Source: a virus. From it: DNA of 37,305 nucleotides. Below the pieces are notes generated by a model. That model was not told the DNA's origin. It ran no database searches and saw only the letters and a list, made by a program, of their open reading frames with translations. This document shows, piece after piece, positions 1,475 through 37,305 of this stretch. The translations under genes and the position numbers were made by a program. The stretch's first letter is position 1; each line of letters opens with the position of its first letter. The stretch covers positions 1 to 37,305 of IMG/VR virus record IMGVR_UViG_3300044530_001708; one strand, 5' to 3'.

Positions 1475-3235
1475 TTATTTTTTATAAAAAAGTTTATCGT
1501 TTTCTAAAGTTTCTCTCACTTCAAAATTATTCTCAATAAGAATAGTTTCCATGTCACCTAAAGAATTCCCATTATTTTCTGTTAAGTTTTTATCCCATTC
1601 AAGATAAATGTAAACATCGTTACAATTTTTAAGAAATCCTGTCATGCCCTCCAACACTTCTTTTTCAAATCCTTGAACGTCAATTTTAATAAATCCAATA
1701 TTAAGATTTTTATTTTTTTTAATCCAATCATCAAACGTGGTGCAATTAACTGTTTCTTCAATATAATTTTTACTAAATGACATATTACTTATTGCAACAT
1801 CTTTATTAAAAGATGTGTTGTCTGAACAATATGGTATGTAGATTGTTTCTTTTTTTGTTTTATTAGAAACTCCCATATTTACAATATTAAAATTATTACA
1901 TTTGTTTTCTTCTCTTCCTAATTCTAACAATTTTATATTCATTCGTACAGGTTCAAAACCGTATACTTCATATCCGTTTAGTGAGGATGGAATACTAAAT
2001 AAACCACAATTTGCACCAATATCAATAATAATTTTTGATTTATCTACCAAACTTATTAACTCTTGTAATTTACTATATTCTTTATATTCCTCATTTACAA
2101 CATTAGTTTTTTGGTAATAAAGATTTGTAAAATAATCGTAGTTATATATTACGTAATTTAGATTATAACTATTTTTAAATTCATATCTGTTTATACTTGT
2201 TGATATCTTATTATTTATTTTTTCAAAATATTTGTCGTAGTCAAAATCATCTTGTTTAATTTTTGTTTTATCAAAAATTTTAGATTTAATTTTTTTAGAA
2301 TCTCTTTCTGAAATATATTTTTCAAAATATTTTTCATAATCAAAATCTTTAAGGTTATTCACGTAATAGTGTTCACCAACAATTAATTTAAATTCGTTAG
2401 GGTCTTTATTACTACCATCAATATCGCTATGACTAACCCTTTGGTTTGCCATTCCTGGAGTAAAAGAATAACAATTTAACTTACTTTCAATTTTGGAGCA
2501 ATACACATGGTCAATTGCATAAGTGTCGGCAATGTTTTCATCAATCAATTTTAAAATTTTATCAATTGATTTTGGGTTAACCAAATAAGCATGTGTTGTA
2601 AATGCGCCATAAACTCTGTGGATATATTTTGTATCAGTTAATTCAAAATCACCTGAAGGGTTCCATCTATCTTTATGTTCATTCAAATGGTAGTACGATG
2701 ATAAAAAGAATATATCCCAATCTAAATTAAAGTTGTCTTCAATATACTTAAACCTGTCCAAAAAATCTTCACATAATTCAACATCATCTTCAAATATACC
2801 TAAAATTTTATTACTGTCATGTGTTTTAAGTAATTTATAGTGTGAAAGAAAACAACCCTTTTGACCTTTACTGTAAGCCTTTGGAAAATTAACATCATAT
2901 TCATTATCATCAACAATTGCGTCAAAAAATTCATAGTTTATATTAAACTTTGGTAAATGAGAGTTAATCCAATCCCTTCTATCATTTCTTTTTTTTAGAT
3001 TAATACATTTAAAATCTATATCATCTAATTTAATTTTATTAAATTTAGTCTTACTTGGGGGTAAATTTTCTAAAGAATCTATTTTTTTATTTAAAAACCA
3101 AGAAGCTTTTTTTAATTCTTCCAAATCATTAAAATCTTTATTTTTTGAATTTAAAATGTGAAACAATGAATTACCAACAGTGTATGACAAATTCCAATTC
3201 TCAATAACATCTATTATATTTTTATCTAAATTCAT
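1475..3235 (-). CDS. three-part fusion: degenerate DUF3310 domain + GT25-type glycosyltransferase + FkbM methyltransferase
   Basis: About 586 residues in three parts. Residues 1-57 resemble DUF3310 (VIENWNLSYTVGNSLFHI, then LEELKKASWFLNKKI) but lack the HPxHY opening. Residues about 75-290 look like glycosyltransferase family 25: CINLKKRNDRRDWI, KGCFLSHYKLL, then FEDDVEL near 148-154 as the acidic sugar-nucleotide/metal motif. Residues about 402-575 are an FkbM methyltransferase: IIIDIGANCGLFSIP, YGFEPVRMN, FIKIDVQGFEKEVLEG. A linker holds two copies of FDY(E/D)KYFEK. I chose the ATG at 3235, which makes an ATGA overlap with the upstream gene. A TTG at 3262 would also be in frame but overlaps that gene by 31 bases. 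The protein probably adds a sugar and methylates it or a neighbour. Confidence 0.8.
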   Translation of the reverse strand: MNLDKNIIDVIENWNLSYTVGNSLFHILNSKNKDFNDLEELKKASWFLNKKIDSLENLPPSKTKFNKIKLDDIDFKCINLKKRNDRRDWINSHLPKFNINYEFFDAIVDDNEYDVNFPKAYSKGQKGCFLSHYKLLKTHDSNKILGIFEDDVELCEDFLDRFKYIEDNFNLDWDIFFLSSYYHLNEHKDRWNPSGDFELTDTKYIHRVYGAFTTHAYLVNPKSIDKILKLIDENIADTYAIDHVYCSKIESKLNCYSFTPGMANQRVSHSDIDGSNKDPNEFKLIVGEHYYVNNLKDFDYEKYFEKYISERDSKKIKSKIFDKTKIKQDDFDYDKYFEKINNKISTSINRYEFKNSYNLNYVIYNYDYFTNLYYQKTNVVNEEYKEYSKLQELISLVDKSKIIIDIGANCGLFSIPSSLNGYEVYGFEPVRMNIKLLELGREENKCNNFNIVNMGVSNKTKKETIYIPYCSDNTSFNKDVAISNMSFSKNYIEETVNCTTFDDWIKKNKNLNIGFIKIDVQGFEKEVLEGMTGFLKNCNDVYIYLEWDKNLTENNGNSLGDMETILIENNFEVRETLENDKLFYKK

Positions 3236-3849
3236 ATATTTTTGTTTACCCAAGACTCCCAAACAAAGTCATATTTATAATTGATTTCAAATCCATTTCC
3301 TTTTAATCCCTCAAATATTTTTTCATAGTTTTCTTCATAATTTTCACAAAAGGTATGAAATTGTATTTGTAGGTATTTTACATTTTTTAAAAATCCTGTC
3401 TCAATCCAATTTAAAAGTAATGGATATTCTTCACATTCAATGTTAATTTGAATTAAGTCAATTTTATTTAAATTATATTTGGATATAAAATAACCAATGT
3501 CGTACGAATCAACACTAATTTTTCTTTTTGAAACTTCAATTGTTTCTGAAGTTGCACACCCATTAACATACAAGTTTATTTTTTTATTTGATGTTGATAT
3601 TGCAACTCCTTCAATGTTAACTTTTGGATTTTCACCAAAATTACGTGTTAACTCATAAACAAAATTAGGGACTGGTTCCACAATAATTAAGTTTGGATTA
3701 AACTTATCAATAATTTTTTTAGACCATACTCCAGTAAATCCACCAAGTTCAATTACTTGGGAATTAGAATCTAACGGATAATCAATAATTTTAATTTCAT
3801 CTCCTCTATCTCTTTCCCACATTTCTTGTGGGGTTAAAACATTTTCCAT
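3232..3849 (-). CDS. FkbM family methyltransferase
   Basis: A 205-residue SAM methyltransferase of the FkbM type. Motif I is VIELGGFTGVWSKKI at about 33-47. IIVEPVPNFVYEL marks the end of strand 2, and IDLIQINIECEEYPLLLNW near 134-152 is the family's conserved (D)xIKIDxEGxE region. FkbM relatives O-methylate sugars or small metabolites. It overlaps the downstream fusion gene by an ATGA, which points to coupled translation. That partner carries its own FkbM domain, so the operon has two diverged copies of this activity. ATG at 3847-3849. Confidence 0.75.
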   Translation of the reverse strand: MENVLTPQEMWERDRGDEIKIIDYPLDSNSQVIELGGFTGVWSKKIIDKFNPNLIIVEPVPNFVYELTRNFGENPKVNIEGVAISTSNKKINLYVNGCATSETIEVSKRKISVDSYDIGYFISKYNLNKIDLIQINIECEEYPLLLNWIETGFLKNVKYLQIQFHTFCENYEENYEKIFEGLKGNGFEINYKYDFVWESWVNKNI

Positions 3850-3854
3850 ATTTC

Positions 3855-4694
3855 TTATTGATTAATTCTTTTCCAAGTTATTGGTAATAACGCACTCCTA
3901 TCGTGTTGAGTGTATGCCGAACCAAACCAATCTTCTTCTTTAGGACAACAAACTATCTTATTTTTATTTTTACTTAAAAATGATGACCACCAAGAAAATG
4001 TACTATTTGCAATAACAAAATGTTGACATAAACTTTGTGATACGAAATCTGTTATATAGTCGCTGTCGTAATCAAAATAGACAACTGTAACTCCAAATTT
4101 TTCAAACTTACCAAAAATAAAATCTTTGGTGTCTTCGTTATCTGTAAAAATTAAAATTTCATCAATTTTAGTTTCATTTAAAATAAAATTTATTGCATTT
4201 TCATAATAGTTAAGTGACATTGTTGGGTGCCACTTTTCAAAACCCTTATGACCACCACCAGTTTTTCTATCATATACATCTCCCCACCTAACATGAACAC
4301 ATAATTTTATTGTGTCTTTGGACATTTTAGATAATGCTTTATCAATCCTTTCTTTAGAAAAAGATAATTCTTCAATTACCTCATTTTCAAATCCCTCAAG
4401 ATATTTCCACGATTGGAAAAATCCATTTATTTCCAAAAGACCTGAATTGCTAGGTATGTCGTGATATGCAAATGATGGTTCTTGGTGTGTTGATGATACA
4501 TTATGTTTAATATCATTTACTGATATTTTATTTTTTAAATTGGGAAACAAATCGCAGTGATCCCATTCTTTTGGGATGTAATATTCAACATTACGTTTCA
4601 TTGATTCTCCAACTACCGCACCAATTCTAAAAAGTTGATTTCCAAATCTACCTTTTTCATGGTGTAATATTTCGGTATTAGTTAGTCCTATCAT
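3855..4694 (-). CDS. GT11 alpha-1,2-fucosyltransferase-like protein (copy 1)
   Basis: A 279-residue GT-B fold enzyme of family GT11. RFGNQLFRIG at residues 16-25 is the N-terminal motif. HVRWGDVYDR at 134 onward corresponds to the HxRRxD GDP-sugar-binding motif, and NSTFSWWSSFLSKNKNK near the C-terminus is the third family motif. The second Arg of HxRRxD is Trp here, while the neighbouring copy at 5770-6591 keeps Arg-Arg. Activity with GDP-fucose or a related GDP-L-sugar is expected from the family, but the Trp makes this copy less certain. ATG at 4692-4694. Confidence 0.8.
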   Translation of the reverse strand: MIGLTNTEILHHEKGRFGNQLFRIGAVVGESMKRNVEYYIPKEWDHCDLFPNLKNKISVNDIKHNVSSTHQEPSFAYHDIPSNSGLLEINGFFQSWKYLEGFENEVIEELSFSKERIDKALSKMSKDTIKLCVHVRWGDVYDRKTGGGHKGFEKWHPTMSLNYYENAINFILNETKIDEILIFTDNEDTKDFIFGKFEKFGVTVVYFDYDSDYITDFVSQSLCQHFVIANSTFSWWSSFLSKNKNKIVCCPKEEDWFGSAYTQHDRSALLPITWKRINQ

Positions 4695-4708
4695 AATTTT
4701 GATATGTT

Positions 4709-5764
4709 TTAATTAAATTTATCGTATTTCTCTCTATATTCAATATTGTTATAATAATCTAACATTGATTTATAGTCCATAGCCAATAATTTATCACACA
4801 ATTTATGATTTTTGTCGTAATATTTATTATCCCCGTTACTAAATGGTGTTCTTGAATGTTCAAAATGATACACAAGATTATCTACTCTTGATACATTATA
4901 TTTTAAAGTTATAAACCTATTTTCTCTTTCTTGGTCTTCAGGTCCATATCCAATAAAATTTTCATTTTCTCCACCACATTTTCTATATTTTTTTGTATTT
5001 GCAAAAACACAATGACCATATTTTGACGTAAAAGTTTTTAGTAAATTAGTATCAATTGAATTTATATCAAAATTTATATTAAACTCATCCCTGTTAAAAC
5101 TTAAAGAAATTTCCCTTTGAAATTCACCATCACCGTAAGGATAAACAAAATCTGAATTACCATTAAGTATTAAATTTTGTGACTCAACGTAAGAGTCAAC
5201 AGGTAAAATAACGTCAATATCATAATTAACAACTACAGGTGTTTTTACAATATTTAACATTTCGTTTAATTGTTTTGTTCTGTGGTAGTAATCCAAATTA
5301 TCTTTTTGAAGAATGTGATTTATTTTTAAGTTTTTTAATGAACTAATAAAATCTAATTTACTTTCTTCTTTAGTTAATTCATGTATAATAACATTTGTTT
5401 TAAAATTTTTATTTAAAAACCCAAGTACACTTACAGCGTTATTATATCTGTCCTTGGATTCAACACAAACTGGAATAATAAATGTTGTTTTTGTTAAGTC
5501 TTTTACGTCAATATCTAACTCATCAGTTTCGTCTTGTAAAGTAAAATCATTATCTTCTAATTTTTGTATTTTTCTTTCAATATACCATAAAGATTTTTTT
5601 AAATCTTCTAACTCAGTATCAATACTTTTTTTACCCGCTCTTGAAATGTATTTTATTGCATTGCCAAGATGAAATCCTAAATCCCAAGATTCAATCACTT
5701 TAATGGCTTCATATGGATTATCTTCTCCACCATAATGTTCAGGATGATTTATTTGATTTTCCAT
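4709..5764 (-). CDS. fusion: DUF3310 domain + GT-A glycosyltransferase (Glyco_transf_7C-like)
   Basis: A 351-residue two-domain protein. Residues 1-70 are an intact DUF3310 domain: HPEHYGG at 7-13, LGNAIKYISRAGKK at 33-46 and LEDLKKSLWYIERKI at 52-66. DUF3310 is normally a short stand-alone phage protein, sometimes annotated as nucleotide-kinase related. Residues about 92-345 are a GT-A transferase: IIPVCVESKDRYNNA, a DxD in NYDIDVILP at 180-188, and GGENENFIGYGPEDQER at 264-280, which resembles the C-terminal domain of beta-4-galactosyl and polypeptide GalNAc transferases. It sits between the two GT11 genes. Sugar and acceptor are not evident. ATG at 5762-5764. Confidence 0.8.
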   Translation of the reverse strand: MENQINHPEHYGGEDNPYEAIKVIESWDLGFHLGNAIKYISRAGKKSIDTELEDLKKSLWYIERKIQKLEDNDFTLQDETDELDIDVKDLTKTTFIIPVCVESKDRYNNAVSVLGFLNKNFKTNVIIHELTKEESKLDFISSLKNLKINHILQKDNLDYYHRTKQLNEMLNIVKTPVVVNYDIDVILPVDSYVESQNLILNGNSDFVYPYGDGEFQREISLSFNRDEFNINFDINSIDTNLLKTFTSKYGHCVFANTKKYRKCGGENENFIGYGPEDQERENRFITLKYNVSRVDNLVYHFEHSRTPFSNGDNKYYDKNHKLCDKLLAMDYKSMLDYYNNIEYREKYDKFN

Positions 5765-5769
5765 TATGT

Positions 5770-6591
5770 TTATAATTTTATCATATTTTCTGTATATAAA
5801 TCATCGGTAATGTATGTTGAATACCCTGTACCGAGCCATTTGATTGGAGCGATGATTTTTTTATTTTTATTTTTTGATAAGTAACTACTCCACCAACTGA
5901 ATGAACTATTTGAGATTATGTGGTGGTCACATAGTGACATAACACATAAATCAACATAAGGTGATTTTGAATTAACAACAGTAAAGTTTTCGTCATTTCC
6001 CCAAACATTATTGCACCATTCGTAATCGTCAGAGCAAACTACAAAATGGTACTCATCTTTATTAAAATGTTCTATTGCGGGATTAAAGAAATCTAAACCT
6101 GTTAATGGATGATACGGATTAGGTACTGCGGCATCAGTTCTTCTAACATGAATTGACACTAATGTCTTATCTGTCTTTGGTAGGTATGATTTTGCTGATG
6201 TTATAATAGAATCTTTAAATTTTAAAATGTCCATTATTTTATCTGAACAATGTTTAAAATATTTTTCTGATTGTAGATAACCATTAACATCCGTGTTGTC
6301 TAAAATATTAAACAAGTTTTCATCAAAATGAAAAAATCTTTCACTAACTCTTTTCTCAATTATTAAATCATCAGTGAAAAATTTTTGGTCAATATCAAAA
6401 CATTCATTTATTTCAAAATATGCGACAAAAGTCTTGTTTTCTCTTGTTGATGATATGTTTATTTGTTTTAGATTTTTTTTAGGAAATAAAACTTCATAGT
6501 TTAATTTATCCCCAATTCCGATTAAAGATGCGAATTGGAATAGTTGATTACCAAATCTTCCATTGTCACCTATGTTACTACATGTTATCAT
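5770..6591 (-). CDS. GT11 alpha-1,2-fucosyltransferase-like protein (copy 2)
   Basis: A 273-residue GT11 enzyme. RFGNQLFQFASLIG lies at 12-25, the canonical HVRRTD at 148-153, and NSSFSWWSSYLSKNKNKK near residue 228. The C-terminal motif is nearly identical to that of the gene at 3855-4694, so the two look like paralogues that diverged elsewhere. The expected reaction is transfer of L-fucose, or another GDP-L-sugar, to a terminal sugar. ATG at 6589-6591, one to five bases from its neighbours on either side. Confidence 0.85.
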   Translation of the reverse strand: MITCSNIGDNGRFGNQLFQFASLIGIGDKLNYEVLFPKKNLKQINISSTRENKTFVAYFEINECFDIDQKFFTDDLIIEKRVSERFFHFDENLFNILDNTDVNGYLQSEKYFKHCSDKIMDILKFKDSIITSAKSYLPKTDKTLVSIHVRRTDAAVPNPYHPLTGLDFFNPAIEHFNKDEYHFVVCSDDYEWCNNVWGNDENFTVVNSKSPYVDLCVMSLCDHHIISNSSFSWWSSYLSKNKNKKIIAPIKWLGTGYSTYITDDLYTENMIKL

Positions 6592-6594
6592 AAT

Positions 6595-7413
6595 TTATTT
6601 TTTAAATGTTATCAACCAATGCCAACCAAGTATAGATTCTAAATAACTAAAAATGGATTTTGGTATAAGTTTAATTATAGTTTTTTTATTATAGTTATGT
6701 TTTATATAATCCTTAATTACATAGGGAAAAATATGGTCTTTTCTAACAGATGTAATTTTAAAATTATTATCTAATTCCAACAAGTTTATTAATTCTTTTT
6801 TAGTGTATGTAAATGCTACAGGACAATCTAATTGAGCTTCAGCGTAATATTGTATTGTTTTATTAAGGTTGAAATTAAATTTATACCCATTTCTAATGAA
6901 AAACTCAAATGTTTTCCATGAGTGTTTTGCATACATCATTATACGAACTTCAGTGTTTTCGTTCATATATTTTTTAATTTCGTCAAATACATTTTGTGGT
7001 GTTGGGGTATGATGAATAACTCCAAAAGAATATATTAAATCGTATTCTTCAATTGGAACAACTTTGGATAGTTCTTCAGCGTTTGCACAATAAAAATCGG
7101 CATTTAAACCAAAAATTTCAAACCTTTTTTTACACAATTCTAAAGACTTTTCAGATAACTCAACACATGTTAATTTAGCACCCGCTTTTGCAAAATTTAT
7201 TGAATCGGTACCTATACCACATCCAATTTCTAAAACTTTTTTTCCTTTCCACTTTTCAAATTCTGCAAATTCTGGTATGTGTGGTTCTACAAAATATTTA
7301 CGATGTTCTACGTCGTTAAAGTATTCTTTACTACCAATTTCTTTTTTTGAATGTCTAATATTACATGGTCTACTATTCCAATAATTTTTAACATCTTTTA
7401 CTGTTTTTGTCAT
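6595..7413 (-). CDS. class I SAM-dependent methyltransferase (Methyltransf_11-like)
   Basis: A 272-residue methyltransferase. [18 protein letters not shown] near residue 59 is motif [19 protein letters not shown] is the strand-2 acidic motif, and [19 protein letters not shown] is the post-IV motif common in small-molecule methyltransferases. The N-terminal segment ([14 protein letters not shown]) is a pattern I associate with natural-product and sugar methyltransferases. The substrate is unknown. It overlaps the upstream glycosyltransferase by an ATGA at 7410-7413, so it may methylate that enzyme's product. Confidence 0.75.
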
Positions 7414-8120
7414 ATTTTATTGTAAGGTGTTTTATTTCTAATTATGTTTACAATTGAATTTACCATTGGCATATTAACCTTATGGTCATTCAAAGGATTA
7501 TTTTCGTTATAAATGTAAGTTATTGTTGAAATATGTCTATAATGTTTTTCACCTGACATTTCAAACATTGGAAACATAAACGCCAAATCGCCTGCTACAC
7601 TCCAATAGTTTCCTTCAGAATCTTGTAAATCTTCTTCTTTAATTTTTTTCCATAACCAAGATTTCCATGTTCGTAAATGTGATAGAGTAAACCCTTGCTG
7701 TCTAATGTTATTAAAACTTGTGGGTGGTGTTGAAAATCCTTGAGAGCCATTACTATACTTAAATGAACCACTTGTCATCCAGACATTTTCATCTTGGTAA
7801 GTTTCATTAATTAATCCTAACACATTTGAATTTGGTAACCAATCATCCCCATCAATTTCAACACAAATTTCATCATCAGGAACATTAAGACCACGAATGA
7901 CTTGGTCATAATTCCCTGGTTGATACATCTTTGTTTTGTTTTCAATTAAAACAAATCTGTCATCCCCTTGTATTGTTTTTTTAATTATTTCAACCGTATT
8001 ATCAGTAGATAAATCATCTGTTATATAACAAGTAAAATCTTTAAATCTTTGAGTCATAATTGTCATCAAAGATTTTTCAATAAAGTTTTCGCAGTTATAT
8101 GATGTTGTTAAGATTATCAT
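7410..8120 (-). CDS. family 2 glycosyltransferase
   Basis: A 236-residue GT-A fold transferase. The opening [20 protein letters not shown], followed by [14 protein letters not shown], is the classical GT2 nucleotide-sugar binding start. The DxD region is [12 protein letters not shown] near residue 88. A short C-terminal part contains the [15 protein letters not shown] stretch. No membrane segment is seen, so it should act in the cytoplasm. The donor and acceptor cannot be read from the sequence. Its start codon overlaps the stop of the UDP-sugar dehydrogenase gene by one base. Confidence 0.8.
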
Positions 8121-9277
8121 TATAGGGTAATTTTGTATCCTTGAGGGTTAGTCCCTGGTTTAAAGAATTTTAATCTGTTATTATAAGATTCACTCATTTG
8201 TTGTAACTTATTTGTAATTGCATCAATTTCAATAACATGTAAGGTATAACCTTCATTTAACAAATCAACACACAATTGGAATTGTTGTGACTCCTCTATA
8301 ATATCAGTACCTTTTTTATAGGTAATATAATCCATTACAAATGGTACCATTCTATCAGGATTTTTTTGAATAAAATAGTCCTTAATGAAATTAGCGTGTT
8401 CTTTATTAAAATTGTCTACAGTTAAAGGTAAATTCAACTCCATTCCAAGATTTTTTGCAAAATGACCTAACGCTCGGTTATCTCTTGGTAAACAAGGACC
8501 ACCAAATCCAAATCCATATTTTAAGTATTTTTTACCAACTCTTGAGTCTCCACCAATTGCACTTAAAACCATATCAATTTCACTTTGAATACCAGCCTTA
8601 ATCATAATTTGTCCCATCATGTTTGCATAACTAATCTTTGTTGTTAAAAAGCAGTTAATGCCAATTTTGGTTATTTCTGCAGCTTTTGGTGACATTACAT
8701 AAGCATTAACAGGTGTGGTTTGAATCTTATTATAAATTTCAATTAATTGATTTGATAGTTCAGTATAGTCAGTCCCAATTAAAACAATGTCTGATTGTTC
8801 AAGACCTTTTACTATTTCACCTTGAGCAATGAATTCAGGGTTATATGCAACCTGAATGTTAAACATGTTTAATCTTGTTTGGATTTGTTCTACATCACCA
8901 GGGTTAGTTGTACATCCGACAATGAATTTCTTTTCGTATAAAGGGATGTTTAATGACGATGCGGTATAAAAATCTGCAACAACTTCAAATACTCTTGTTG
9001 TGTCGTAATTACCGTCTAATGTTGATGGGGTTGCAACGAATGTAAAAATAACATCAGAGTTTTCAATAACCTCAATATTTTTAGTTGTTGCACTAAAATT
9101 TTTTGAATCCAACAACATTGATTGGATTAATGGTTCGTTTGTTAAACAAATTTTTTGGTTTAAGTTAAAGACATAATCTTCTCTAACATCAGATACAATT
9201 ACTTCGTATCCGTTTTTTTCACATAATAGAGCAAAAGTTAATCCTAATCTGCCTGCTCCGATAATTCCTATTTTCAT
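8120..9277 (-). CDS. UDP-glucose/UDP-ManNAc 6-dehydrogenase family protein
   Basis: A 385-residue member of the NAD+-dependent UDP-sugar 6-dehydrogenases, which oxidise UDP-glucose or a relative to the uronic acid using two NAD+. The Rossmann motif GIIGAGRLG is at 3-11, YNPEFIAQGEIVKG near 145, Lys214 and Asn218 lie in EITKIGINCF, and the catalytic Cys262 is in GFGFGGPCLPRDNRAL. All key residues are present. The C-terminal domain is somewhat shorter than in typical 400-430-residue enzymes. Which UDP-sugar is used cannot be told. The upstream gene is NAD synthase, which makes its cofactor, with an ATGA overlap at 9274-9277. Confidence 0.85.
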   Translation of the reverse strand: MKIGIIGAGRLGLTFALLCEKNGYEVIVSDVREDYVFNLNQKICLTNEPLIQSMLLDSKNFSATTKNIEVIENSDVIFTFVATPSTLDGNYDTTRVFEVVADFYTASSLNIPLYEKKFIVGCTTNPGDVEQIQTRLNMFNIQVAYNPEFIAQGEIVKGLEQSDIVLIGTDYTELSNQLIEIYNKIQTTPVNAYVMSPKAAEITKIGINCFLTTKISYANMMGQIMIKAGIQSEIDMVLSAIGGDSRVGKKYLKYGFGFGGPCLPRDNRALGHFAKNLGMELNLPLTVDNFNKEHANFIKDYFIQKNPDRMVPFVMDYITYKKGTDIIEESQQFQLCVDLLNEGYTLHVIEIDAITNKLQQMSESYNNRLKFFKPGTNPQGYKITL

Positions 9278-10053
9278 ATTATTTCGTTTTGTTTTAAATC
9301 AAAGATTGGTATTGAAACCATTTTATGTTTATTTTTTTCATTAAAGTTTTGGTACGTTTGGAGAACTTTAAATTCTTTTTCGGTGTGTGATATTTTATTA
9401 ATACCATATTCCATAACCCATTCTAACTCTTCATAAGTAGCACCAATTTGAGATTCATCGTTTCTATCATCATCCCATAAACCGTCTGTTGGTGTTGCAT
9501 CAATAATTTCTTGAGGAACTCCCAAATAACGACCAAGTTCTCTAACCTCTGTTTTATATAAATCGGCAATTGGAGAAATATCAACACCACCATCACCATA
9601 CTTGGTAAAAAACCCAACACCAAAATCCTCAACTTTATTTCCTGTTCCTATAACAATACCACTTGTAACTGTTGCTATATGGTATAATGTCATCATTCTT
9701 AATCTTGATTTGCTATTCGCATTAGCCAATTCAGATTTAAACGTTTGAGACATAAGGGTTTCAAAGGATTTAAATGTCTCACTTAATTCAATTTCAACCG
9801 TCTTAACATTTAATTTGGATAAAAACTCTAATTGAAGGTTTGATAATGTTGTATTATTAAGTTTTGAATTCAACGGCATTCCAACAGCGATTGTTGGAAT
9901 CCCCGTTTTTGCACATAAAGTAGAGACAACTGCGGAATCAATTCCACCTGAAACACCAATTACTAAAGTTTTGATGTTGTTGTTTAATACATAATTTTCA
10001 ATCCAACGTTGTATTTCGTTTGATAAATTTTCGTAATCTATAATTCTATTCAT
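9274..10053 (-). CDS. nadE: ammonia-dependent NAD+ synthase
   Basis: A 259-residue N-type ATP pyrophosphatase that converts nicotinate adenine dinucleotide to NAD+ with ATP and ammonia. The P-loop SGGIDS is at 35-40. IGTGNKVEDFGVGFFTKYGD near 135-155 and DISPIADLYKTEVRELGRYL are hallmark NadE segments, and PTDGLWDDDRNDESQIG follows. There is no glutaminase domain, so it is the short ammonia-using form of usual length. It lies in a glycan operon directly before a dehydrogenase that consumes NAD+. Possible roles are cofactor supply or replacement of NAD+ destroyed by host defence; both are inference. Confidence 0.9.
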   Translation of the reverse strand: MNRIIDYENLSNEIQRWIENYVLNNNIKTLVIGVSGGIDSAVVSTLCAKTGIPTIAVGMPLNSKLNNTTLSNLQLEFLSKLNVKTVEIELSETFKSFETLMSQTFKSELANANSKSRLRMMTLYHIATVTSGIVIGTGNKVEDFGVGFFTKYGDGGVDISPIADLYKTEVRELGRYLGVPQEIIDATPTDGLWDDDRNDESQIGATYEELEWVMEYGINKISHTEKEFKVLQTYQNFNEKNKHKMVSIPIFDLKQNEII

Positions 10054-30185: not shown

Positions 30186-32981
30186 ATGTTTACAGACCAA
30201 GATATTGAATCGTTCCTACACGGAAACGACCCCGAAGAATTTATAGTCGCTATCGAATACGACTATCGCGAGAACTGCATTTACAAAATCAAAGAAATCC
30301 CTGGTAAAGGAAAGGAAATCCGAAAAGATACATTCACACCATTTGCATGGGTGGGTGATTTACGTCAGATTAACTTTTACAACGGTTCCAAAGACGCTCA
30401 GAGAGATGCCATGACCAAACATGGTATCATGATTGAAAAGTTAGAAACCCACGGTAATGACAGATTACAAAGAGGTATGACTTTCATGGTTAAATCACTA
30501 AAAGGTTACAGAGAACTTATCCAATTCTTTAGAGAAGGTGGATGTGACCCATGGGGAGATAAGACCAAAGACAAAGTAATGATTCTACCTCCCGTAGAAC
30601 AATATTTAATTTCAAAAGAAAAAAGACTATTCAAAGGTTTCGAGAACTATGAAGAAGTGACCCGAATGGTATATGACTTAGAGACGACCGCTCTTGAACC
30701 TCAACACGGTCGTATCTTCATGATTGGAATTAAAACCAATAAAGGTTACCACAGAGTAATCGAATGTATGGATGAATCTGAAGAGAGAAATGCCATCATA
30801 GAATTCTTCAAGGTAATCAACGAACTTAAACCAAGTATTATTGGTGGTTACAACTCAGCGAACTTCGACTGGCATTGGATATTCGAAAGATGTAGAATCT
30901 TAGGTATCGACCCAAAGAAGATTTGTAAGTCATTACACCCCGACCATTCGTTCACAAGAAAAGATAGTATGTTGAAACTTGCTAATGAGGTTGAGAACTT
31001 TACTCAAACTTCTATTTGGGGTTACAACGTAATTGATATTATCCATGCTGTTCGTAGAGCACAGGCGATTAACTCAAGTATTAAAGCTGCGGGTTTGAAG
31101 TATATCACCCAATTCATTAATGCGGAGGCCCCTGACCGTGTGTACATTGACCATACAGATATTGGTCCATTCTACGCTAAGAAGGAAGACTTTTGGTTAA
31201 ACATTCAAAACGGTAAGTACAAGAAAGTTGGTGTTGATTCTAAGATTGACGCAGCTTGTTCTAAACGTACTGACGTATATGTTACAATCACAGGTGATAA
31301 GTTAGTTGAGATGTATCTTGACGATGACTTAGATGAAACCCTTAAGGTGGACCAAGAGTTCAACCAAGGTTCGTTCTTGTTGGCTGCGATGATTCCAACA
31401 ACATACGAAAGGGTTTCAACCATGGGTACTGCAACATTATGGAAAATGTTAATGTTAGCTTGGTCTTACAAACACGGACTTGCAATCCCCGCCAAAGAAT
31501 CCAAGACAGACTTCGTAGGAGGTCTTTCTCGACTACTTAAGGTTGGTTATAGTAAGAATGTACTTAAACTCGACTTCTCGTCTCTATACCCTTCTATTCA
31601 GCTGGTACACGATGTGTTCCCCGACTGTGATGTGACAGGTGCAATGAAAGGTATGTTGAGTTACTTCCGTAACACCCGTATCAAATACAAACAACTTGCA
31701 GAGGAATTCTATGCAACTGACCGTAAGAAATCTGAATCATATGGTAACAAACAGTTACCGATTAAGATTTTCATTAACTCGATGTTCGGTGCATTATCCG
31801 CTCCTCAGGTTTATGCTTGGGGTGATATGTACATGGGTGAACAGATTACTTGTACAGGTAGACAATACCTTCGTCAGATGATTAAGTTCTTCATGACTAA
31901 AGGATATGTTCCATTGGTAATGGATACGGACGGTGTGAACTTTTCAACTCCTGATGAGGCGAATGATAGAGTTTATGTTGGTCGTGGATTGAATTGGAAA
32001 GTTAAAGAGGGTAAAGAATATTACGGACCTGAAGCTGATGTTGCGGAGTACAACGATATCTTCATGAGAGGTGAGATGGCACTTGATACCGATGGGGTAT
32101 GGCCGTCAACTATTAACTTAGCTCGTAAGAACTATGCGGTTATGGACGCCAAGGGTAAGATTAAACTAACAGGTAATAGTATTAAATCTAAGAAACTTCC
32201 ATTGTATATTGAGGCGTTTTTGGATAAAGGTATTAAGATGTTGTTACAAGGTGATGGTAAAGCATTCGTGGAGTATTACTACGAGTATCTTCAAACCATT
32301 TATGATAAGAAGATTCCACTTAGTAAGATTGCACAAAGAGCTAAAGTTAAATTAAGTCTTGATGATTATAACAAGAGACTAACCACTAAGACCAAAGCTG
32401 GTAACAGTATGAGTAGAATGGCTCACATGGAGTTGGCATTACAGAATAACTTGAATGTGAACTTGGGTGATGTGATTATGTATGTTAATAACGGTACCAA
32501 GGCGTCTCAAGGTGATGTTCAGAAGATGACTGTGAAACAGATTAAAGATACAAACGCGTACAACGCACTTATGAACCCTAAGACAAAACCTATTACCGAT
32601 GGGGTTATGGTAAACTGTTATATGTTAGACAAGGACATCTTAGATAACGACCCCGACTTAACAGGTGACTATAATGTACCAAGAGCTATTACAACATTCA
32701 ATAAGAGAATTGAACCTTTAATGGTTGTCTTTAAGGATGAAGTTAGAAATAGTTTAATTGTTAACGACCCTGCGGATAGAGGAATATTCACAACAACTCA
32801 ATGTGAACTAATCAATGGACACCCGTTAGACGAGGGTTCTCAAGATAGTTTAGAAGAGGTTATGACGTTATCAGACGGTGAATTATCTTATTGGGAAAAA
32901 AGAGGTCTTGATTCCAATTACATGTATGAGTTAGCCGAAGAAGGTTGGGAAAAAAAATTAGGATTGCTTCAGACCGTCTGA
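30186..32981 (+). CDS. family B DNA polymerase with 3'-5' exonuclease domain
   Basis: 931 residues, close to the 898 of T4 gp43. Exo I is VYDLETTALEPQHGR near 160, and Exo II is IIGGYNSANFDWHWIFERC near 220. Polymerase motif A is LKLDFSSLYPSIQ near 459-471, motif B is KIFINSMFGALS near 527, and motif C is VMDTDGVNF near 578 (MDTDG in place of the common YGDTDS, both Asp kept). KNYAVMDAKGKIKLTG supplies the KxY region. Both proofreading and synthesis should be active. The start at 30186 is an ATG after a leader of about 107 bases. The gene ends by overlapping the convergent gene by 24 bases. Confidence 0.95.
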   Translation: MFTDQDIESFLHGNDPEEFIVAIEYDYRENCIYKIKEIPGKGKEIRKDTFTPFAWVGDLRQINFYNGSKDAQRDAMTKHGIMIEKLETHGNDRLQRGMTFMVKSLKGYRELIQFFREGGCDPWGDKTKDKVMILPPVEQYLISKEKRLFKGFENYEEVTRMVYDLETTALEPQHGRIFMIGIKTNKGYHRVIECMDESEERNAIIEFFKVINELKPSIIGGYNSANFDWHWIFERCRILGIDPKKICKSLHPDHSFTRKDSMLKLANEVENFTQTSIWGYNVIDIIHAVRRAQAINSSIKAAGLKYITQFINAEAPDRVYIDHTDIGPFYAKKEDFWLNIQNGKYKKVGVDSKIDAACSKRTDVYVTITGDKLVEMYLDDDLDETLKVDQEFNQGSFLLAAMIPTTYERVSTMGTATLWKMLMLAWSYKHGLAIPAKESKTDFVGGLSRLLKVGYSKNVLKLDFSSLYPSIQLVHDVFPDCDVTGAMKGMLSYFRNTRIKYKQLAEEFYATDRKKSESYGNKQLPIKIFINSMFGALSAPQVYAWGDMYMGEQITCTGRQYLRQMIKFFMTKGYVPLVMDTDGVNFSTPDEANDRVYVGRGLNWKVKEGKEYYGPEADVAEYNDIFMRGEMALDTDGVWPSTINLARKNYAVMDAKGKIKLTGNSIKSKKLPLYIEAFLDKGIKMLLQGDGKAFVEYYYEYLQTIYDKKIPLSKIAQRAKVKLSLDDYNKRLTTKTKAGNSMSRMAHMELALQNNLNVNLGDVIMYVNNGTKASQGDVQKMTVKQIKDTNAYNALMNPKTKPITDGVMVNCYMLDKDILDNDPDLTGDYNVPRAITTFNKRIEPLMVVFKDEVRNSLIVNDPADRGIFTTTQCELINGHPLDEGSQDSLEEVMTLSDGELSYWEKRGLDSNYMYELAEEGWEKKLGLLQTV

Positions 32982-33297: not shown

Positions 33298-34419
33298 TTA
33301 GATTACATATATTTGACGAGGCATCGCTCTGAACTTCATTTGTTTATTTAAATTCTCCGCAATCAACGCTTCTCTTTCCATAACTTTTTCAGGTCTCATT
33401 CTTGTTAACCATCCTTCAGCTCCAGTAAGTTCTTCTATTAGTTTAGTTTTTTCGTCTTTAGCCTCGGTTAATAAACTCTGATAATCCATTGTAATTTCAC
33501 TATCAGGTGTCTTAAGATTACCACTGTATTTACCTCTAACTCTTGCTAAAGTTTCTTTACAATATGCGGTAAACCATCTTCTAACCCACTGTTGACCAGG
33601 AACATTAATATCTGTCCAAGTTAATTCCTCGATAGGAACATCTGTAGGTAGTTTAATAACGTCAGGGTTATTTTTTAAGCAATCGGCTCTACTATCAGGT
33701 TCAACATCATAATACCAATACCATACGGCTTTACCAACGTATTGACCATAACTTGACCAATTGAATCTACCACCTGGTGTATTGTATAAGTGAATCATTT
33801 TTTTACCATCAGGTAAACCTGTGATTCTATAAGTTAAAGAACCCCCTAAAATTCTATTAAGGATATTCGATTCTTGAGCTCTGATTAAATAATCAAATCC
33901 TGACATCATAAAGTAAGAACCTTGATTACCCATTTGAGCGAATCCCGCTTCACTGGCTCCAAGACCAACTCCACCGAAAGGACCTGCAATTCCACCTAAT
34001 CCAAGATTATATGGACGGTCACTAAACCATAATAGTTCGTTAACCTCTCTGCCCGCAGGAATTTCATATGTTTGGACATTCTTCTCAAGAATAAAATAAT
34101 CTTTCTTCAAAACCCAAGGACCTTCAGTTTGAAGACCAACAATTTTAGAATACGAATAACTAAACTGTTGTTCAAAATCCATTGTTCTTGTAACCAAAGC
34201 TCTTGCAACAGACCTTTCGTTCATATTTAAGTTGACAAGGTTAACCCATTGTGAATCAATTAACCATTGTAGGATATACTCTTCGTAATCCCCAATCGCC
34301 AATTCCATTAATGAGTCCATCATTTCATCTTCAAGTTCAACACTTCTTAGTGGTGCACCTAATTGATGTTTGATTCTCGTATATATTCTACTTCTTTCTG
34401 GTTCAGGTATTGCTGGCAT
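33298..34419 (-). CDS. T4 gp13-like neck / head-tail connector protein (probable)
   Basis: 373 residues. The N-terminal helical segment, RIYTRIKHQLGAPLRSVELE followed by MMDSLMELAIGDYEEYILQW, is like the start of T4-type neck protein gp13 and other connector adaptors. The middle has a Gly-rich beta region (NLGLGGIAGPFGGVGLGASE). KAVWYWYYDVEPDSR and QQWVRRWFTAYCKETLARVR come before a helical C-terminus. It is a little longer than T4 gp13 (309). Its position between a small beta-rich protein and the dismutase fusion suits a structural cluster. An ATAAATATC site (GATATTTAT on the coding strand) is four bases before the ATG. The assignment is by pattern only. Confidence 0.55.
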   Translation of the reverse strand: MPAIPEPERSRIYTRIKHQLGAPLRSVELEDEMMDSLMELAIGDYEEYILQWLIDSQWVNLVNLNMNERSVARALVTRTMDFEQQFSYSYSKIVGLQTEGPWVLKKDYFILEKNVQTYEIPAGREVNELLWFSDRPYNLGLGGIAGPFGGVGLGASEAGFAQMGNQGSYFMMSGFDYLIRAQESNILNRILGGSLTYRITGLPDGKKMIHLYNTPGGRFNWSSYGQYVGKAVWYWYYDVEPDSRADCLKNNPDVIKLPTDVPIEELTWTDINVPGQQWVRRWFTAYCKETLARVRGKYSGNLKTPDSEITMDYQSLLTEAKDEKTKLIEELTGAEGWLTRMRPEKVMEREALIAENLNKQMKFRAMPRQIYVI

Positions 34420-34436: not shown

Positions 34437-35975
34437 TTATTCTATTTCGTGAATCAATGAATTCTCATTAAACACATATTGGTTATGATTCTTAATCGGT
34501 TTGTTTTCAAAAATCAAAACTTTATTCGATTTTGTATTTATAAATATCATCCAATCCACATCATAAGGTTTAACATTACCAGTATCTTTAACGGTAATCT
34601 TTCCGTTTACATTGCTCGTCGTTGAAAACTGTTTAATCTGAGCTGTGTATTCTTTACCTTCTAAAGTTATTTTCAAATCAACCCCTTCGATAGCATCTTC
34701 TTTCTGACCATGCCCACCAATTTTTTCTAAAGTTGCTGAGTCACCAAAATACTTTTCAATTTTAACAAACACATCGTTTTCAGATTTTTGACCTCGGTCC
34801 CAAAGTTTCTTAAGGACTTTAATTATGTTAATAAAATCTTGGTTGTTTCTTGTGAATATTTTAGATTTAAAGTGGTCGATGGCTTTAAGTAATCGACTTA
34901 TCTCTTTTATAGTTCTGTTTTCTTTTTTTGAAAAATCAAATTTCTTTTCAGACTTACCAATATTTTCAATTTGATTATTAACCGATTTGGTTAATAAACA
35001 GAATGAGTTGAAGTTTGTGTTAAGGTTATTCAATATTGACCTTCCTTCTTTTGATTCAACACCGTAGAATCCCGACATTTCTTTATTGGTACTGTCTACC
35101 CAAAATTGACTGAACACTTCTTTTAAAATGTCAGTTACTCCGTCTTGATAAAGTTTTTTAATTTTTGGATTGTTGATAAGTTCTCTGTAGAATTGAACTT
35201 CTTTAGCGTCACAGAATTGAGCCTCTTTGGATTCAGTTAAAAGTTTTTCGAGTTTTATAGATTCCAATAATTTGGTTTCCGTTCTCATCTCGTATAGTTT
35301 TGATACGAATTCCCAGTTAACGACTTTCCAAAAGTTTGTAATGTACTCGTCTCTTTTGTTTCTATACTTAAGGTAGTAAGCGTGTTCCCAAAGGTCTAAA
35401 CCTAAAATTGGAAACCCACCGCCTTCAATAACATTCATTAAAGGATTATCTTGATTTGGTGTCGACATAATCTTTAATGTGTTCTTGGCTGTAAGTACTA
35501 ACCATACCCAACCTGAACCGAATCTTTCTTTGGCAACAGTATCGAATTGTTTCTTGAAGGCGGTGAAACTTCCAAATTGTTTCGTAATCTTTTCGTATAA
35601 AGGGCCCTCTAATTTTTTAGGTTTTGGGGTCAACATGTTCCAAAACAATGCGTGGTTAAATGCTCCACCTGCGTTATTTCTTATTGTTTTATCAAAACGA
35701 CTTATTGTTTTGATTATTTGTTCTAACTCAACATCCCCGTATTTTTTCTTTGACAACGCGTCGTTTAGTTTGTCGACGTACCCTTTGTAATGTTTGTTGT
35801 AGTGAAAGTCCATTGTTTCGGGGTCAATAAACTGTTTCAGGGCTGAGTAAGAATAAGGTAATTTTTCTATACCTATTTTCTTCATTTCTGTAATCAATAA
35901 CTCTTTCTCTTTGTTTACGTGGTTTTCAAGTATCTGTGTTTCGAGTTGTTGAATTTGTTTTTCTATTTTTTTCAT
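34437..35975 (-). CDS. fusion: Fe/Mn superoxide dismutase + PD-(D/E)XK nuclease-like domain
   Basis: 512 residues. Residues 38-230 form a complete Fe/Mn superoxide dismutase. Metal ligands are His58 (FHYNKHYKGYV), His108 (NNAGGAFNHALFW), Asp194 and His198 (LGLDLWEHAYYLKY), with the conserved GSGWVWLV at 153-160. Residues 1-37 are a helical lead. A linker at 231-260 contains KLLESIKLEKLLTES. Residues 261-390 are helical and unassigned. Residues 391-490 resemble a restriction-endonuclease fold: SEND at 398-401, GVD at 432-434 and AQIKQ at 445-449, giving E-D-(Q)xK, then a strand DVDWMIFIN. No signal peptide is present. Its place beside the neck-like gene raises the possibility that it is packaged in the virion. 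ATG at 35973-35975. Confidence 0.85.
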   Translation of the reverse strand: MKKIEKQIQQLETQILENHVNKEKELLITEMKKIGIEKLPYSYSALKQFIDPETMDFHYNKHYKGYVDKLNDALSKKKYGDVELEQIIKTISRFDKTIRNNAGGAFNHALFWNMLTPKPKKLEGPLYEKITKQFGSFTAFKKQFDTVAKERFGSGWVWLVLTAKNTLKIMSTPNQDNPLMNVIEGGGFPILGLDLWEHAYYLKYRNKRDEYITNFWKVVNWEFVSKLYEMRTETKLLESIKLEKLLTESKEAQFCDAKEVQFYRELINNPKIKKLYQDGVTDILKEVFSQFWVDSTNKEMSGFYGVESKEGRSILNNLNTNFNSFCLLTKSVNNQIENIGKSEKKFDFSKKENRTIKEISRLLKAIDHFKSKIFTRNNQDFINIIKVLKKLWDRGQKSENDVFVKIEKYFGDSATLEKIGGHGQKEDAIEGVDLKITLEGKEYTAQIKQFSTTSNVNGKITVKDTGNVKPYDVDWMIFINTKSNKVLIFENKPIKNHNQYVFNENSLIHEIE

Positions 35976-36017: not shown

Positions 36018-37305
36018 TTAACGACGCATTTCCTGAATTCTCTTTAAAATTTCTTCAGCCGCATCGGCAGTGTTTTGATTGTCCCCCATTACTGTGGCAA
36101 TCACTTGTTTCTTGTTATTTAATATGTCGTAGATAATTCCTTCGATTGTGTTCTCGAATATGGGGTAATAAACTAATACATTGTTTTTTTGACCATATCT
36201 GTAAGCTCGGTCTTCTGCTTGGGCGTGGTCTGATGGTAAGAATGATAGGTCGTTCATAATAACCGCTTCAGCCGCAGTTAGTGTTATACCAACACCCGCA
36301 GCTTTAATGTTACCAACAAATACTTTTATCTTATCGTTTTCTTGAAAGGAATCCACACTATGTTGTCTCTCAGGTTTGGACATTGACCCATCCACTTTAA
36401 CTGCCGCTTTACCAAAGTGTTCACATATTTTATTAAGTGAGTCGGTGAAGTTACAGAATATGATTACCTTCTTACCTTGTTCTACAATGTTCTCGGCAAG
36501 TTCTATTGTCTGTGAAATTTTTTCATCGGCAATAACTTGACGTATCTTTGTTAATTTGGTGAATTGAACTGTAAGTGATTTTGACTCCTCGGGGTTCTTA
36601 TCGTACCAATCGTAATACTCACCCATAATTTCTTCATACATCTTAGATTTCAATCTAAGATATACTGGTGTAATAATCTTATCAGGTAAGTCAAGTACGT
36701 TCTCTTTAAGTCGTCTTAGAGTAAGTCCTGAAGTTCGGTCTCTTAATTCTTCAAGATTTGATGCTCCCATAACATTCCACACTTTTCTACCACCAACGTT
36801 GAATTGGTATCCTTGACAGTATCTGATGGCATAAGCCATCCAGTTCTTGGCAACAGGAGATTCAATTAAACTTAATAGGTTGAAATAATCGATAGGTCGA
36901 GAGGTCATCGGAGTACCTGTTAATAACCAAAGTCGGTCCACCTTTTTAACAAGGTCGTTAATTAGTTTTGTTCTTTGGGCTGTAGCATTTTTGATATAGT
37001 GTGCCTCGTCAACGACCACCAAATCAAAATTGGCATCAAGAATCTGTGACTCACCTTTCTTTTTTGTATCATGAAAATTTTTAATAATGTCGTAGTTTAT
37101 AATAACAAAGTCCGCATCCGTACTGAAGTTCTTACCTTCAGCGATATAAACTGTTTTGTCTGAATAATTTTCAATCTCTCTTTTCCAGTTAATTTTTAAA
37201 GTTGCTGGACAAATGATTAATACTTTCTTAGAACCTGATTCTAATGCCGCTATAATCGTTGAGGTTGTTTTTCCAAGACCCATATCATCGGCAAGGATAA
37301 ACTTC
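36018..37305 (-). CDS. SNF2-family DEAD/H helicase-like ATPase (partial, 5' end outside window)
   Basis: About 429 residues are visible, and the reading frame is open to the right edge. The Walker A region reads KFILADDMGLGKTTSTI from the edge inward, so the ATG at 37281-37283 is internal, not a start. Motif Ia is LIICPATLKINWKREI, motif II is VVVDEAHYIKNATAQR, motif III is LWLLTGTPMTSRP, and the C-terminal helicase core has KVIIFCNFTDSLNKI, GNIKAAGVGITLTAAE and QAEDRAYRYGQKN. The fold is of the SNF2/SMARCAL1-like translocase type, close to phage recombination/repair helicases. In T4-like phages UvsW has a comparable role in fork remodelling, but I do not claim orthology. Confidence 0.9.
   Translation of the reverse strand, partial: KFILADDMGLGKTTSTIIAALESGSKKVLIICPATLKINWKREIENYSDKTVYIAEGKNFSTDADFVIINYDIIKNFHDTKKKGESQILDANFDLVVVDEAHYIKNATAQRTKLINDLVKKVDRLWLLTGTPMTSRPIDYFNLLSLIESPVAKNWMAYAIRYCQGYQFNVGGRKVWNVMGASNLEELRDRTSGLTLRRLKENVLDLPDKIITPVYLRLKSKMYEEIMGEYYDWYDKNPEESKSLTVQFTKLTKIRQVIADEKISQTIELAENIVEQGKKVIIFCNFTDSLNKICEHFGKAAVKVDGSMSKPERQHSVDSFQENDKIKVFVGNIKAAGVGITLTAAEAVIMNDLSFLPSDHAQAEDRAYRYGQKNNVLVYYPIFENTIEGIIYDILNNKKQVIATVMGDNQNTADAAEEILKRIQEMRR

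Follow-up and report, generated by a model that had tools for sequence, protein, structure and literature searches.

Uncultured freshwater T4-like giant (jumbo) phages, which form a large group, encode a 512-aa protein joining a superoxide dismutase (SOD) domain, intact in sequence, to a C-terminal half that modelling and conservation predict to be an intact PD-(D/E)XK-type nuclease module. Purifying selection acts on both domains. We postulate that this protein is a modular virion precursor that would be cut by the prohead protease into SOD and nuclease, a reading that in our view could equally well prove right or wrong. Packaging, cleavage, ejection, and both enzymatic activities are inferred; there is no virion proteome and there are no assays.

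The fusion gene and its genomic setting

The gene was found in an IMG/VR virus record of 37,305 bases, the whole of which was analysed and is referred to here as the window. The features discussed below are as follows.

34437..35975, minus strand: SOD–nuclease fusion gene, 512 aa, ATG start
35886..35975, minus strand: predicted helical N-terminal propeptide, residues 1-30 (model helix 2-33, low confidence; variable, dN/dS 0.16)
35886..35897, minus strand: LITE, residues 27-30, a conserved motif and predicted prohead-protease-type site, cut before M31
35286..35870, minus strand: Fe/Mn SOD domain, residues 36-230, ligands H58, H108, D194, and H198 (Pfam, PDB sequence match, fold, invariance)
35232..35273, minus strand: linker residues 235-248, KLLESIKLEKLLTE, with two predicted protease-type sites, E238↓S239 and E248↓S249
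34821..35231, minus strand: conserved helical part of the predicted nuclease module, residues 249-385 (model, alignment, free-standing homologue in phage W01)
34440..34820, minus strand: predicted PD-(D/E)XK nuclease core, residues 386-512, with E399, D433, and Q446-x-K448 (model, fold matches, conservation)
36018..37304, minus strand: SNF2-type helicase, directly upstream, truncated at the contig end (PF00176, E 2.2e-28; phrog_62)
33298..34419, minus strand: T4 gp13-like neck/head-completion protein (phrog_211, head-tail adaptor Ad2, E 7.4e-11; head-completion protein of phage immuto)
32958..33293, minus strand: conserved neighbor of 111 aa (synteny)
30186..32981, plus strand: family B DNA polymerase, convergent, the conserved edge of the block

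The fusion gene and the downstream gp13-like gene are on the same strand, separated by 17 nt, and belong to a conserved block in the order SNF2 helicase, SOD gene, gp13-like neck gene, 111-aa gene, and convergent DNA polymerase. This block is also kept in most of 80 viral contigs sampled with an SOD DNA motif, which represent a much wider T4-like lineage with genomes of up to ~320 kb. Because the sample was picked by the SOD motif, it is silent on how often the slot has no SOD. Within the stretch fetched, the gp13-like gene adjoins the SOD–nuclease gene in 43 of 47 fused loci.

A scan of IMG/VR identified 80 loci matching the 512-aa product at 72 to 100% identity over near full-length alignments. 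The fused state was found in every complete distinct close-clade open reading frame (65/65, from the loci of three scans), including those on contigs of 317 to 326 kb, and therefore is not a join artefact; on the same evidence, an assembly chimera was ruled out. The 317-kb relative (G001) encodes homologues of T4 gp17, gp18, gp20, gp21, gp23, and gp25, which are closer to those of Flavobacterium phage immuto, and its gp21-like protease matched T4 gp21 with an E value of 1.5e-17. Bacteroidota hosts are hinted at by the relation to immuto and by the SOD tree described below, which is not proof and leaves this assignment a possibility. No nuclease module was present next to gp13 at the loci examined in the immuto lineage.

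The content of the SOD slot varies. The nuclease module was detected at a strict cut in 47 loci of the 80-contig sample. In other loci the SOD ends about 30 residues after the motif, or it carries different C-terminal modules, including several distant relatives that have a D...QVK signature. The SOD-only versions are an alternative occupant of the slot rather than the product of a faulty assembly. Five loci (L444, L445, L460, L463, and L504) encode, in the same slot, an SOD with an N-terminal domain of ~130 aa that bears HEW(I/V)H (HExxH) and is metallopeptidase-like, and one 914-aa frame (L484) contains an SOD followed by two successive nuclease modules, each after an LxES...xNE tag. None of these added domains, the HExxH domain included, is named by a Pfam model.

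Elsewhere in the window, positions 1475-9277 hold a sugar/glycan cluster comprising a GT25–FkbM methyltransferase fusion, a DUF3310–glycosyltransferase fusion, two GT11 genes, and a UDP-glucose dehydrogenase gene. It is followed by an NAD synthetase-like gene at 9274-10053 (phrog_11189, E 4e-83), for which an NAD-replenishing role is possible.

The dismutase domain and the predicted nuclease module

The N-terminal half matched the Pfam models Sod_Fe_N (residues 36-115; E 3.5e-22, 79.1 bits against a cut-off of 27) and Sod_Fe_C (residues 124-226; E 2.3e-40, 137.2 bits against a cut-off of 20.9), and the best PDB sequence matches were the MnSODs of Sphingobacterium sp. T2 (E 2.6e-60). In 44 divergent alignment rows, the ligands H58, H108, D194, and H198 were invariant wherever aligned, as were the second-sphere gateway residues H62, Y66, E197, and Y201 and the Gln at the MnSOD position. 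Q175, together with G192-L193 ahead of the ligand Asp, hints at Mn, an inference that rests on known families only. The median dN/dS of the domain was 0.042 (Nei-Gojobori). Dismutase activity itself is inferred from sequence alone. In the SOD tree, the phage domains grouped together with moderate support (73/89), beside and among SODs mainly from Bacteroidota, and one long-branch MAG row (L317) sits beside the phage group.

An alternative hypothesis is that the SOD is a catalytically dead scaffold or carrier for the nuclease. The SOD is indeed common to proteins with different C-terminal domains, but neither its metal ligands nor the second-sphere residues checked vary, its dN/dS is 0.04, and SOD-only versions are kept; we consider this explanation very unlikely. 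An earlier note, made from the window's letters before this analysis, had listed among its candidate roles a dismutase part that is structural only, which is disfavored on the same grounds, as all catalytic residues are kept.

Because modelling the full-length protein gave only a weak structure (pLDDT 67), the C-terminal half was folded alone from 49 sequences, yielding a model with a pLDDT of 88.2. It consists of helices, including a long helix (379-413) bearing E399, and strands from D433 on that bear Q446 and K448; a beta hairpin occupies the place where the canonical helix after the third strand is expected. Foldseek searches of the PDB with this model returned I-Ssp6803I (E 3.7e-4), SPARDA nucleases, archaeal Hjc resolvases, NhoI, and RecU, and VIA-align recovered the same nuclease families at Z of about 8 over residues 386-512. 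A Z of 8 is middling on its own; the weight lies in the fact that nearly all top matches belong to one superfamily and in the invariance of the active site. E399, D433, Q446, and K448 were invariant in 33 close homologues, and among the 44 divergent rows E399 was found in 44/44 and D433, Q446, and K448 each in 43/43, with one gap. A chance E/D/Q/K pattern was thus ruled out, given this invariance and the confident fold. Median dN/dS values were 0.11 for the middle part and 0.19 for the nuclease (Nei-Gojobori). DNA cleavage by the module is inferred.

A free-standing homologue of 290 aa is encoded by the 735-kb phage LR756501 (W01). It is 25 to 28% identical to the module, keeps the E, the D, and the Q-x-K as well as the D-to-Q spacing of 13, and also contains the helical part corresponding to residues 249-385. 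An IMG/VR search with this homologue as the query gave no match. Profiles in Pfam, PHROGs, PADLOC, and PDB sequences provided no useful match to the C-terminal half, a PDB sequence search with its own profile found nothing real, and one pattern scan of GTDB genomes detected no bacterial homologues.

Two other identities were considered for the C-terminal half. A known defense nuclease was rejected, with no PADLOC match. Identity with the phage's gp4 was ruled out as a family match, and W01 carries a separate gp4 besides its module homologue. No gp4 was detectable in G001-G003 or in immuto, and it remains possible that the module functionally replaces gp4 in these phages, which we cannot exclude.

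A 423-aa protein of G001 (L166, at about 176.4 kb) has an REase-like core that is weakly related (E about 1e-6), and its gene adjoins two RLTESDL-tagged genes.

The earlier note had described a full Fe/Mn dismutase with four metal ligands, followed in one frame by a region with the spacing of an REase-like core (E399, D433, Q446-x-K448). These claims held: the reading frame (34437-35975), the domain matches, and the C-terminal fold support the two-part architecture, the dismutase ligands are exactly the residues it named, and the four nuclease residues are present and invariant. What it took for about 130 unassigned helical residues is really a conserved helical part (249-385) of the same module. 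It had held that the proposal would fall if the C-terminal model lacked an REase core or if homologues ended after residue 230 with an assembly error explaining the join. Neither was the case: the PDB matches are almost all PD-(D/E)XK nucleases, and no such homologues were met in the close clade.

Predicted protease sites and the virion-precursor reading

The earlier note did not mention the hydrophobic-x-Glu sites that flank the domains, the slot beside the neck gene, or the modularity. The predicted sites resemble those of the T4 prohead protease and occur as LITE30↓M before the SOD and as LLE238↓S and LLTE248↓S in the linker. In all 66 of 66 sequences with the block, the first site (LITE in 42, LINE in 15, LLTE in 8, LIQE in 1) lies directly ahead of MKK(I/L)GIE at the SOD start. 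Across 67 divergent SOD genes, 84% had a site within 25 residues before the SOD, compared with 18% in shuffles. The linker pattern, K/R-hydrophobic-x-E238-S/T plus hydrophobic-hydrophobic-x-E248-G/S, was found in 37 of 43 linkers (shuffle mean 0.6, maximum 4), with E238 kept in 43/43 and E248 in 40/43; outside the hydrophobic-x-Glu positions the linker is variable (median dN/dS 0.17). Because the shuffles leave common descent uncorrected and all these phages belong to a single lineage, the ratios should not be read as probabilities. The short motif is also common: 52 of 385 G001 proteins have an N-terminal hydrophobic-x-Glu motif, versus 24.5 in shuffles.

In the major capsid protein of the clade, the propeptide ends with the site LINE↓AS, where T4 gp23 has FLTE↓A. 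In the T4 gp24 control, LLRE↓S was found at residue 10, in agreement with the published loss of the first 10 residues of that protein (PMC9958956). Double-site patterns like that of the linker also start other G001 proteins, for example RLTESDLVRLVKRVVKE and MSKKIVRLTESDLVRLVKRVVKEQ. The linker tag is missing from SOD-only versions, so its presence is tied to that of the C-terminal cargo. Alignment of the free-standing W01 protein with the fusion begins at residue 251, close to the cut predicted after residue 248. Another phage (G050, 322 kb) has both the fusion and a separate free-standing nuclease module of 318 aa, which starts MKITISEGQYKILSE, with TISE/ILSE at its N terminus. This second gene sits between the prohead protease (T4 gp21, E 1.4e-22) and a scaffold homologue, which is the place of core/internal proteins in T4-like head operons.

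Related starts and tags were seen elsewhere. G001 genes at 98.9, 177.5, 177.9, 187.5, 208.3, 217.3, and 245.4 kb have a linker-like two-site start, (K/R)(L/I)(T/K)E(S/N)DL...(V/I)(V/I/L)xE(Q/S/H). At 192 to 208 kb of the same genome (L179-L180), a run of ~12 small unrelated proteins starts with M(K/R)xI(I/L)TE(Q/S)Q, possibly a short capsid-targeting and cleavage tag. In phage LR756501 (L081), several unrelated proteins have the motif DPYGEE(D/N)W at one end or close to it.

In T4, internal proteins and Alt enter the prohead by means of N-terminal capsid-targeting sequences and are later ejected (PMC7411985), and gp21 removes propeptides of the capsid, Alt, and internal proteins (PMC5694885). 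By this precedent, the N-terminal helix, the linker tag, or both would bring the fusion protein into the prohead, where a gp21-type phage protease would cut at E30↓M31, E238↓S239, and E248↓S249 and thereby release the SOD (about residues 31 to 238 or 248) and the nuclease (249-512) from each other inside the head. Both enzymes would be ejected with the DNA. The SOD may clear superoxide in the vicinity of the DNA or within the cell just infected. The nuclease may act on host or competing DNA or on branched phage DNA; shared delivery would not require a common substrate. There is precedent for an SOD near nucleic acid, FeSOD3/PAP4 in the plastid RNA polymerase (PMC13140286), and giant viruses have virion SODs (PMC9405923). 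Also against the precursor reading, E30 abuts the conserved block M31-E37 and may be kept for another reason, the Met after the predicted cut differs from the Ala/Ser of T4, and the upstream helicase is a non-structural gene.

The rival with the most standing, which we consider possible, is an uncut bifunctional enzyme whose SOD part, as a dimer or tetramer, keeps the nuclease domains together and shields their DNA substrate from superoxide in the cell. Fe/Mn SODs are obligate oligomers. The nuclease fold is nearest to I-Ssp6803I and SPARDA DREN; DREN is active only as a tetramer and forms tetramers similar to those of I-Ssp6803I (PMC12205087), so that the SOD could set the oligomeric state. 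This hypothesis is further favored by a product length that stays at 512 aa throughout almost the entire close clade and by the plastid FeSODs, which place an SOD at a nucleic-acid machine. Against it, the linker is variable except at the hydrophobic-x-Glu residues, and SOD and nuclease are also found apart.

A third alternative is that the gene serves intracellular defense against reactive oxygen species (ROS), with the fused nuclease used for phage recombination or host DNA breakdown and no role in the virion. ROS-defense genes of freshwater phages do include SODs (PMC6802176), a helicase gene adjoins the fusion gene, and the nuclease fold resembles Holliday junction resolvases. We find this explanation unlikely, however, in view of the slot beside gp13, the protease-like sites, and the free-standing nuclease gene between protease and scaffold genes.

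Returning to the precursor reading, the virion-packaged role that the earlier note had raised gains support from the protease-like sites and the gene context, with packaging itself inferred; its redox-linked nuclease remains a possibility. A bolder version is that, in this large T4-like lineage, virion polyproteins are built around a constant SOD and carry exchangeable enzymes on protease-cleavable tags. The cargo would be one or two C-terminal nuclease modules or the N-terminal metallopeptidase-like HExxH domain, and dismutase and nucleases would be delivered with the genome. We lean slightly against this extension.

Significance and comparison with known systems

If the precursor reading is true, freshwater bacteria infected by these phages receive, along with the injected phage DNA, an antioxidant enzyme and a nuclease that are ready for use, and a capsid protease matures enzyme polyproteins, as in some animal viruses. 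The double-Glu tag would then mark the head-packed ones among hundreds of unknown giant-phage proteins, offering a way to recognize, from sequence, which proteins uncultured phages inject.

No paper on an SOD–nuclease protein was found in the open-licence literature searched, and within that scope the earlier note's statement that no protein of this architecture has been described held. A similar protein has already been deposited, apparently unremarked: BFVD holds UniProt A0A6J5L953, a 501-aa protein from an uncultured Caudovirales phage, with "superoxide dismutase" as its sole annotation and a C-terminal part that matches our model (TM 0.80, 27% identity). Its name and length imply the same fusion, which is an inference. 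Standalone phage SODs were already known; those of PA5oct/MIJ3 and Vibrio phage 2.275.O are likewise phage-encoded Fe/Mn SODs, but they show 27 to 31% identity, are unfused, and lie in another gene context.

Bacterial MnSODs (Sod_Fe_N/Sod_Fe_C; e.g., Sphingobacterium sp. T2, 6gsc) share the full fold, the metal ligands, and the second-sphere residues with the phage domain, which differs in being fused to the predicted nuclease and in having a phage-specific N-terminal helix with a hydrophobic-x-Glu site. The C terminus shares its fold and the E/D/Q-x-K order with Hjc resolvases, I-Ssp6803I, SPARDA DREN, and NhoI; unlike these PD-(D/E)XK nucleases, it has no detectable sequence family in Pfam, PHROGs, PADLOC, or the PDB and contains an extra conserved helical part. 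T4 gp4, a TnsA-like head-completion nuclease that is virion associated (PMC7824862), is also an REase-fold nuclease of a T4-like phage, but it matches TnsA and phrog_218, whereas the fusion protein matches neither and represents a different family. Compared with T4 Alt and internal proteins, for the fusion packaging is only inferred; it shares with them an N-terminal segment ending in hydrophobic-x-Glu and a gp21-type protease in the genome, and it differs in its longer N-terminal segment and in the second predicted site between two enzymes.
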